DNA of 64,000 bases, taken from contig NZ_CP096883.1 of assembly GCF_023273895.1 (NCBI RefSeq), forward strand, positions 4,526,001-4,590,000. Direction: 5' to 3'. Below are positions 38,287 through 39,912 of this stretch, piece by piece (within the stretch, counting starts at the first letter, position 1; each line of letters begins with the position of its first letter). The notes under the pieces were generated by a model. That model did no database searches. It had not been told where the DNA came from and saw nothing but the letters and a program-made list of their open reading frames with translations. The position numbers were made by a program, and so were the translations under genes. Source of the stretch: Sphingobacterium sp. PCS056 (GTDB lineage: Bacteria > Bacteroidota > Bacteroidia > Sphingobacteriales > Sphingobacteriaceae).

Positions 38287-39912
38287 ATGATTAATGTATC
38301 AAATCTTTCTCTTCGTTATGGTAAACGTATACTATTCGAAGATGTCAATTTAAAATTCACACCTGGTAATTGTTACGGTATTATCGGTGCCAATGGAGCT
38401 GGAAAATCAACTTTTTTAAAAATTGTTTCTGGTGATATTGACCCTTCTACGGGTTCAGTTGCTTTCACACCTGGCGATAGAATGTCGGTCTTAAGCCAAG
38501 ATCACTATGCTTTCGACGAATTTACGGTATTGGAAACGGTTATGATGGGAAACCAAGAACTGTACAAAATCATGAAAGAGAAAGATGCTATCTATATGAA
38601 AGAGGATTTCTCGGATGCTGATGGCGAACGTGCAGGTGAATTGGAAAGTTTATTTGCAGAAATGGATGGCTGGAATGCGGAATCCAATGCGGCAACACTA
38701 TTGAGTAGTTTAGGTATTAAAGAAGAATTTCACTATAAATTAGTTTCAGAAATTGATGGTAATCAAAAGGTACGTGTTTTATTAGCACAAGCTTTATTTG
38801 GGAAACCAGATATTTTGATTCTCGATGAGCCTACCAACGACTTGGATATTAACACGATCGCTTGGCTGGAAGATTTCTTAGCTACTTATGAAGCAATTGT
38901 ATTGGTCGTATCCCACGATCGTCACTTCTTAGATGCAGTCTGTACACATACAGTGGATATTGACTTTGGTAAAATGACGATCTATACAGGTAACTACTCT
39001 TTCTGGTACGAATCGTCACAGTTAGCGTTGAAACAGCGTACTGATCAAAATAAGAAAACTGAAGATAAAGTAAAGGAATTACAAGAATTTATCCGTCGAT
39101 TCTCAGCCAATGCATCGAAATCTAAACAAGCGACTTCTCGTAAGAAAGCTTTAGATAAAATCAATATCGATGAGATCAAACCTTCTAACCGTAAATATCC
39201 TGCTATCATGTTCAATACCATGAACAGAGAGCCGGGAGATCAGACCTTACAAGTAGAGGGATTGGGTAAGACCATAAATGGTGAAGTTTTCTTCAAAGAT
39301 ATTACCTTCATGATCAACAAAGGTGATAAAATTGCGGTTTTGGGAGCCAATTCATTAATTACTTCAGCTTTTTACGATATCATATCGGGTCGCGATAAAG
39401 ATTACGAAGGAGATATTAAATGGGGTATTACCATTACTCCGGCAGATATGCCAATGGACAATTCTCCTTTCTTTGAAGGTAGGACTGAAAACCTTGTCGA
39501 TTGGTTAAGAGATTATACCACAAATCCTGATGCCGATGAGCAATTCATACGTGGATTCCTAGGTAAGATGTTATTCTCGGGAGAAGAAGTATTGAAAAAA
39601 TGTTCTGTATTATCAGGTGGTGAGAAAATGCGTTGTATGTTCTCAAGAATGATGCTACAAGGTGCAAATTTCTTAATCTTTGATGAGCCAACCAATCACT
39701 TGGATTTAGAATCCATCACAGCTTTGAATAACGGTATGGTAGATTTCAAAGGTTCAATGTTGTTCACTTCTCGTGATCACGAATTAACTGAAACAGTAGC
39801 TAATCGTATCATTGAATTGACTCCAAAAGGTATCATCGACAAACTGATGACCTATGATGAATATATCAATAGTGAAGTCGTACAAGCACAACGTGCCGAA
39901 ATGTATAAATAA
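38287..39912 (+). CDS. ABC-F family ATPase (YbiT-like) with a degenerate second ATP site
   Basis: A 541-residue soluble protein with two ABC domains, of the ABC-F group that acts on ribosomes. Domain 1 has Walker [10 protein letters not shown] (about 35-43), Walker [13 protein letters not shown] and switch SHDRHF, but its signature is SEIDGNQKV rather than LSGGE. The linker has the [19 protein letters not shown] motif. Domain 2 keeps LSGGEKMR and [10 protein letters not shown], but its Walker A is GANSLITSA (no Lys, no Ser/Thr pair) and its switch is SRDHE in place of SHDRE. So only one composite ATP site looks complete. Monocistronic, with a strong terminator. Confidence 0.93.

Follow-up and report, generated by a model that had tools for sequence, protein, structure and literature searches.

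The window analysed here, a 64,000-nucleotide stretch of Sphingobacterium sp. PCS056 DNA, carries a gene for an ABC-F ATPase whose two ATP sites look unequal. A first-pass annotation read one site as complete and the other as degenerate, and predicted a protein that hydrolyses ATP at one site only. Two questions follow from this locus: is the asymmetry a defect of one copy or a property of its family, and what would it mean for the ATP cycle of the protein?

The gene, its family and its fold

The open reading frame at 38287-39912 (plus strand) starts with ATG, is intact, and encodes 541 amino acids (aa). The listed genes on either side are both on the opposite strand. Pfam placed PF00005 (ABC_tran) in two stretches of the protein, giving two ABC ATPase domains in one chain, and the ABC_tran_Xtn linker PF12848 at aa 223-307 (80.7 bits against a cut-off of 25.9). 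Two ABC ATPase domains together with this linker are what defines an ABC-F protein, and the window protein has both.

38287-39912, plus strand: ABC-F ATPase gene of the YbiT/YkpA clade, 541 aa (open reading frame, Pfam/NCBIfam, PDB sequence match, tree)
39088-39147, plus strand: ABC-F linker stretch, PF12848 (Pfam, conservation)

The top NCBIfam family was NF011646 (PRK15064.1), which we take to be YbiT, the entry itself being labelled just 'ABC-F family ATPase'; the score of 624.3 bits is below the equivalog cut-off of 762. The top PDB sequence match was E. coli YbiT (9njf_Y, E = 1.2e-147). In the tree, a branch with a support of 99 parts 131 rows, including E. coli YbiT and Bacillota, from five ABC-F paralogues of the same genome; the join to these paralogues is less sure because they are long-branched. 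The nearest named row is Sphingobacterium corticibacterium, paired with a same-genus genome at a support of 99. YkpA is the YbiT of B. subtilis, and BdAF1 is a Bacteroidetes-only ABCF (PMC6723617, available part). BdAF1 is disfavoured as an assignment and YbiT favoured, because the clade also contains Bacillota.

The AlphaFold model of the window protein had a pLDDT of 86.6. It matched 5zxd (human ABCF1 with ATP; Z 31.5, rmsd 3.6 over 452 residues) and 9njf (YbiT on the ribosome; Z 31.0, rmsd 6.0 over 530), which are tied by the rule of the tool, followed by 9nlf (Z 30.4, rmsd 7.9 over 515). As modelled, the protein has the fold of solved ABC-F proteins.

Three other features were recorded in the window. 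At 38275-38282, TATCTTTG stops four bases short of the ABC-F start codon and presumably resembles the Bacteroidota -7 box; if used, it would make the ABC-F mRNA nearly leaderless, and the resemblance could be chance. Three adjoining genes at 32550-36535 (minus strand) encode a 525-aa membrane protein, a HlyD-type adaptor and a TolC-type outer membrane protein. The 525-aa protein had no Pfam match at 1e-5 and reads like an MFS exporter, and the three genes look like an EmrAB-TolC-style efflux set. At 39987-41582 (minus strand), the encoded protein of 531 aa has an F5/8 type C domain at its C-terminal end and gave no Pfam peptidase match; it contains HELGHGLNASH, which we take to be typical of zinc metalloproteases.

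Motifs of the two composite sites

Site I joins Walker A of domain 1 (Walker A1) to the signature of domain 2 (signature 2), and site II joins Walker A2 to signature 1. The motifs of site I are as follows.

38386-38412, plus strand: Walker A1, GANGAGKST (aa 34-42), intact (translation, alignment)
38497-38499, plus strand: Q-loop Gln71 of domain 1, intact (alignment)
38809-38847, plus strand: Walker B and D-loop of domain 1 (aa 175-187), intact (translation, alignment)
38914-38916, plus strand: switch His210 of domain 1 (VVSHDRHF, aa 207-214), intact (translation, alignment)
39610-39624, plus strand: signature 2, LSGGE (aa 442-446; stretch 440-450), intact, facing site I (translation, alignment)

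The motifs of site II, and the Walker B and D-loop of domain 2, are as follows.

38752-38766, plus strand: signature 1, IDGNQ (aa 156-160; stretch 153-163), altered, facing site II (translation, alignment)
39274-39276, plus strand: A-loop position of domain 2, Ile330, aromatic gone (alignment)
39343-39369, plus strand: former Walker A2, GANSLITSA (aa 353-361), with G4, G6 and K7 lost and S8 kept (translation, alignment, conservation)
39454-39456, plus strand: Q-loop position of domain 2, Met390, Gln gone (alignment)
39667-39705, plus strand: Walker B and D-loop of domain 2 (aa 461-473), intact in the window copy (translation, alignment)
39772-39774, plus strand: switch position of domain 2, Arg496 (FTSRDHEL, aa 493-500), His gone (translation, alignment)

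The translation bears out the first-pass annotation for Walker A1 (GANGAGKST) and for the LSGGE core of the domain 2 signature (LSGGEKMR), both of which had been called intact. Signature 1, described there as altered (SEIDGNQKV), indeed has IDGNQ where LSGGQ is expected, the Ser and the second Gly being gone. Walker A2 had been said to lack both its Lys and its Ser/Thr. Compared residue by residue with GANGAGKST, S356 replaces G4, I358 replaces G6 and T359 replaces K7, so that the loss of Lys holds; the Ser/Thr is kept as Ser360. Arg496 occupies the position of the switch His, as had been read from SRDHE. The losses of the A-loop aromatic (I330) and the Q-loop Gln (M390) in domain 2 add to that list, and D466 and E467 of Walker B2 and D473 of D-loop 2 are all present. 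The protein has the make-up of a degenerate-site ABC ATPase, one composite site lacking catalytic residues and the other being canonical; the Walker B2 Glu is nevertheless present. In the five paralogues from this genome, both domains are complete in their Walker A, Q-loop, signature, Walker B and switch residues; at each A-loop position, the aromatic is missing from one of the five.

The first-pass annotation described E. coli YbiT as sharing the altered first signature while keeping its second Walker A, and the 9njf chain agrees (VAPGWKLR and GTNGVGKSTL, respectively). E. coli YbiT (9njf, 9nlf) resembles the window protein in architecture, in the linker FSANASKS[KR]QATSR and in having an altered signature 1, with a 496-bit match over 3-531. 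It differs in domain 2, where the aromatic of the A-loop, a complete Walker A2, the Gln of the Q-loop and the switch His are all kept.

A collapsed or rewound P-loop in domain 2 was considered and dropped. In the AlphaFold model, helix 1 starts at motif position 4 in domain 2 and at position 7 in domain 1; in a control model of an intact gammaproteobacterial YbiT (L207), for which the alignment held mostly degenerate rows, domain 2 helix 1 runs from position 5. Because the intact control differs by one residue, no P-loop collapse is claimed.

Distribution and history of the site II losses

Motif counts refer to all 200 rows, with gaps set aside. A match at E 1e-100 or better was present in 95 of 101 family genomes; G007, G010, G023, G024, G032 and G043 had none at this threshold. 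Outside the family, 91 of the 93 genomes from the class had a match among the matches listed, which were sorted by kinship and counted by hand. Forty own-family rows and 54 of the 91 other same-class rows were read. Named genomes were scanned with a linker pattern, which is blind to Walker A2; at least 117 stretches were found, 80 loci were listed, and all 80 were used.

The Walker A2 Lys was kept in 0/40 own-family rows, in 0/54 other same-class rows and, among the matches listed, in 0/30 named Bacteroidota rows. The first-pass annotation had reasoned that a mostly intact Walker A2 in homologues of the lineage would mark this copy as an isolated mutant; the Lys was found in none of these 124 sequences. 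In favour of an isolated mutant, a gene in decay or an error of sequencing, there is the odd motif itself and nothing further. Against it stand the intact reading frame, strong purifying selection (see below), the matches in the family and class genomes counted above and the absence of the Lys from all 40 own-family sequences. The survey has already refuted this explanation, and its probability is negligible.

Among the matches listed, Bacillota kept the inner glycine G6 in 0/30 rows and the Lys in 18/30. The trait is not peculiar to the window copy or to Bacteroidota, because Bacillota rows share the inner glycine loss; a Bacteroidota-only trait was rejected once the linker-pattern scan gave Bacillota with equal glycine losses. 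Three Bacillus rows (L153, L158 and L208; strain 168 YkpA is not included) resemble the window protein in these losses and differ in keeping the switch His. L158 and L208 further differ in keeping the Walker A2 Lys, for which L153 has Asn, and L153 and L208 in having a canonical LSGGE signature 1. Domain 2 retains its inner glycines, Lys, Q-loop Gln and switch His in 16/16 named Pseudomonadota rows and in the one Campylobacterota row, among the matches listed. These residues were likewise intact in seven distant rows from the window's phylum, which share 40-43% identity with the window protein. The lopsided design looks like an old inherited feature rather than a damaged copy, because sampled relatives from two large bacterial phyla have it too.

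The switch His of domain 2 was lost in 36/40 own-family rows and kept in 49/54 other same-class rows and, among the matches listed, in 24/29 named Bacteroidota; its loss is more local than that of the Lys, because it is mostly kept beyond the own family. The Walker B2 Glu was kept in 40/40 own-family rows. It was replaced in 16/54 other same-class rows, in 5/8 rows of family f17 and, among the matches listed, in 12/29 named Bacteroidota. Glu-to-Gln at Walker B is the change used in laboratories to disable a site, and it occurs naturally as DQPTNHLD in family f2 (L063, L065-L067, L069-L071) and in L090. In family f17, the Lys is kept and the inner glycines are gone (GPNDLVKTTL and similar) in 8/8 rows. 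This family adjoins the Bacteroidota clade in the careful tree (99/96) and is an intermediate state. A stand-in Lys at motif position 2 (SKDS.., SRDS..) was considered, being common in many same-class rows; it is not a general replacement, because most own-family rows have Q, E, A or P there.

At site I, the residues of Walker A1 (G4, G6, K7, S8), Gln71, signature 2 (S, G, G), Walker B1 (D, E) and His210 were kept in every row with letters, the lone exception in the motif counts being the engineered Glu-to-Gln of 9njf. The site I A-loop aromatic was absent in 10/31 named Bacillota rows among the matches listed, where the residue is aliphatic. It was missing in 11/135 tree rows through 3 changes, the Bacillota cases being Lachnospiraceae-like rows, and a wholly invariant site I was rejected on this ground. 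Loss of an A-loop aromatic alone is no sign of a dead site, because the site I A-loop is also lost in some rows.

Two further observations concern single groups of relatives. The domain 2 switch His is replaced by Arg (RDHQV/I) in L131, L139, L155, L168, L178, L184 and L201 (Lachnospiraceae, Clostridiales), in parallel with SRDHEL of the window's family; in 6/7 of these rows, the A-loop residue of site I is aliphatic as well. L046-L048 (family f19; same phylum, other class) are 68-69% identical to the window protein. L046 sits beside the window's family on the tree, and the three rows are a possible horizontal transfer or a quirk of taxonomy.

The quick tree contained 136 rows, with motif columns removed and 8 short rows and 56 near-duplicates of the 200 dropped. 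The careful tree contained 60 rows, without the long-branched paralogues and L172. Rows lacking G6 form one side of a branch in both (114/136 rows, SH-aLRT 89; 47/60 rows, support 100/100), and the loss of G6 is one change on the tree. Within the 114-row clade, K7 changed 9 times, the Walker B2 Glu 9, the domain 2 switch His 9, the Q-loop 2 position 6 and the A-loop 2 position 5. The 17 intact rows (16 for Glu) showed 0 changes at site II positions, despite holding 10.91 of the 42.57 branch length. That all 38 changes fall in the larger part of the tree has a chance of about 1e-5 if they are independent, and independence is not strict. Of the 114 degenerate rows, 107 keep S/T8, 111 keep the Walker B2 Asp and 82 keep the Walker B2 Glu; the Glu was replaced in 32/114 and the switch His in 34/114. 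The eleven site I positions and both D-loop Asp had 0 changes on the 136-row tree. The pairing argument of the first-pass annotation, by which the site made of Walker A1 and signature 2 alone is intact, gains support from these unchanged positions and from the repeated changes at site II. A sequence asymmetry with a single old origin on the tree is shown here.

Conservation was measured over 125 Bacteroidota sequences. The variability of Walker A2 averaged 1.51 bits; Walker A1 had 0.03, and the median for domain 2 was 1.16. Q-loop 2 position 390 had 3.0 bits and the linker stretch 268-287 had 0.33. No new conserved motif replacing Walker A2 was found in these sequences, the stretch being more variable than the domain 2 median. 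In nine same-genus genes, with synonymous sites near saturation, pN/pS was 0.087 overall, 0.072 for domain 1, 0.108 for domain 2 and 0.066 for the linker; Walker A2 had 0.203 vs. 0.005 for Walker A1. Domain 2 and the linker are under continued purifying selection. Because pN/pS is low and yet Walker A2 is variable, domain 2 is needed, but the sequence of its pocket is not constrained to bind ATP.

A putative one-site ATP cycle

We favour, with modest confidence, a YbiT/YkpA-type ABC-F that works with one catalytic ATP site, site II being probably non-hydrolysing and most likely empty or weakly filled. As judged from the motifs, hydrolysis at site I alone is the firmer part of this reading and is quite probable; that site II is empty is only somewhat favoured. 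Site II is probably non-hydrolysing because its pocket is without the residues for adenine stacking, for wrapping and neutralising the phosphates, and for sensing the gamma-phosphate. The simplest cycle has one ATP at site I, because site I is kept and site II has decayed. In such a cycle, domain 2 would act as a partner domain, giving its signature and D-loop in trans to close over the ATP on domain 1 (Walker A1/B1, Q71 and H210). ATP binding at site I would bring the two domains together and allow the protein to fit the ribosomal E site, to which the conserved linker suggests it binds. The linker of the closed protein would reach towards the peptidyl-transferase centre. Hydrolysis at site I would then open the domains, and the protein would leave the ribosome.

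For a housekeeping ABC-F, E site binding, a reach to the peptidyl-transferase centre and exit after the NTPase step have been proposed, and loss of YkpA/YbiT in B. subtilis gave mild stalling on some charged stretches (PMC11381351, available part). The words 'walker' and 'signature' are absent from the main text of that paper. On the ribosome, nucleotide-bound MtbEttA takes a closed form; with ADP, it did not bind stably (PMC8782954, available part).

The main rival to the one-ATP cycle is the 'glue' model proposed for Pdr5, CFTR and TAP-like transporters, in which ATP at site II would stay bound and unhydrolysed and keep one side closed over many site I cycles. These exporters and TM287/288 resemble the window protein in having one composite site intact and the other without catalytic residues (PMC7756269, available part). 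In the same part of that paper, the degenerate site of Pdr5 is without the Walker A Lys, which is absent here too, and without the Walker B Glu, H-loop His and signature, and its MgATP affinity is called comparable to canonical. The retained Ser360, Walker B2 D466 and E467 and D-loop 2 are consistent with nucleotide that may still be held at site II. However, the Lys is not the only loss here: G4 and G6 of Walker A2, the aromatic of the A-loop and the Gln of the Q-loop are gone as well. PMC7756269, in its available part, argues from orthologue conservation of the degenerate motifs, whereas here the altered motif is unconserved (Walker A2 and position 390 both exceed the domain 2 median, as given above). 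The exporters also differ in being membrane transporters with their deviations in NBS1, which in Pdr5 consists of the NBD1 Walker motifs and the NBD2 signature (PMC7756269, available part); the window protein is soluble and has the opposite site altered. On balance, the 'glue' model is rather unlikely for the window protein.

That both sites turn over ATP, site II slowly and with other residues standing in, is improbable. The Walker B2 Glu in every own-family row would fit such turnover, as would Bacillus L208, in which Lys, Walker B2 Glu, switch His and an LSGGE signature 1 stand beside the lost glycines. Against it, the Walker B2 Glu and the switch His are each replaced in more than a quarter of the degenerate tree rows, and their site I counterparts are unchanged.

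Unequal sites have been described in other ABC-F proteins. MsrD and Vga(A), compared here by function and not by motifs, are alike in that the two sites can do different jobs; in MsrD, E434Q in the second ABC domain was more toxic than E125Q, which kept some resistance (PMC10314930, available part). The second-domain site of MsrD seems to matter more, which is the reverse of what is retained in the window protein. MtbEttA is alike in that its two sites engage nucleotide differently, and unlike in having conserved motifs at both (PMC8782954, available part); the asymmetry of the window protein lies in the sequence.

No description of a lost Walker A2 in YbiT/YkpA was found in the literature searched, outside which subscription papers and preprints mostly lie; nor does one appear in the available parts of PMC10314930, PMC6723617, PMC11381351, PMC8782954, PMC6389857 and PMC7756269. 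A publication for the 9njf/9nl entries was likewise not found in the literature searched. As far as the present data go, the asymmetry is real, old and widespread in a known family, and is new as a described variant within that literature; one-site chemistry is the likely consequence at the level of sequence.

A widespread subfamily that has let go of one site, with the eleven positions of the other kept in all rows sampled, is a natural experiment, suggesting that a housekeeping ABC-F can do with a single site. We tentatively propose, without placing it above the contrary, that the YbiT/YkpA proteins of Bacillota and Bacteroidota may be natural one-ATP ABC-F translation factors, in which the domain 2 pocket was given up once and, in Bacteroidota, would no longer bind nucleotide, so that a two-ATP clamp cycle would not be required. 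The direct prediction of the one-site reading is that E181Q traps the protein and E467Q is silent. Work on ABC-F factors often uses mutants in which the two sites are changed at once (EQ2), and the EQ2 mutant of such a YbiT/YkpA protein may in effect be a single-site mutant.
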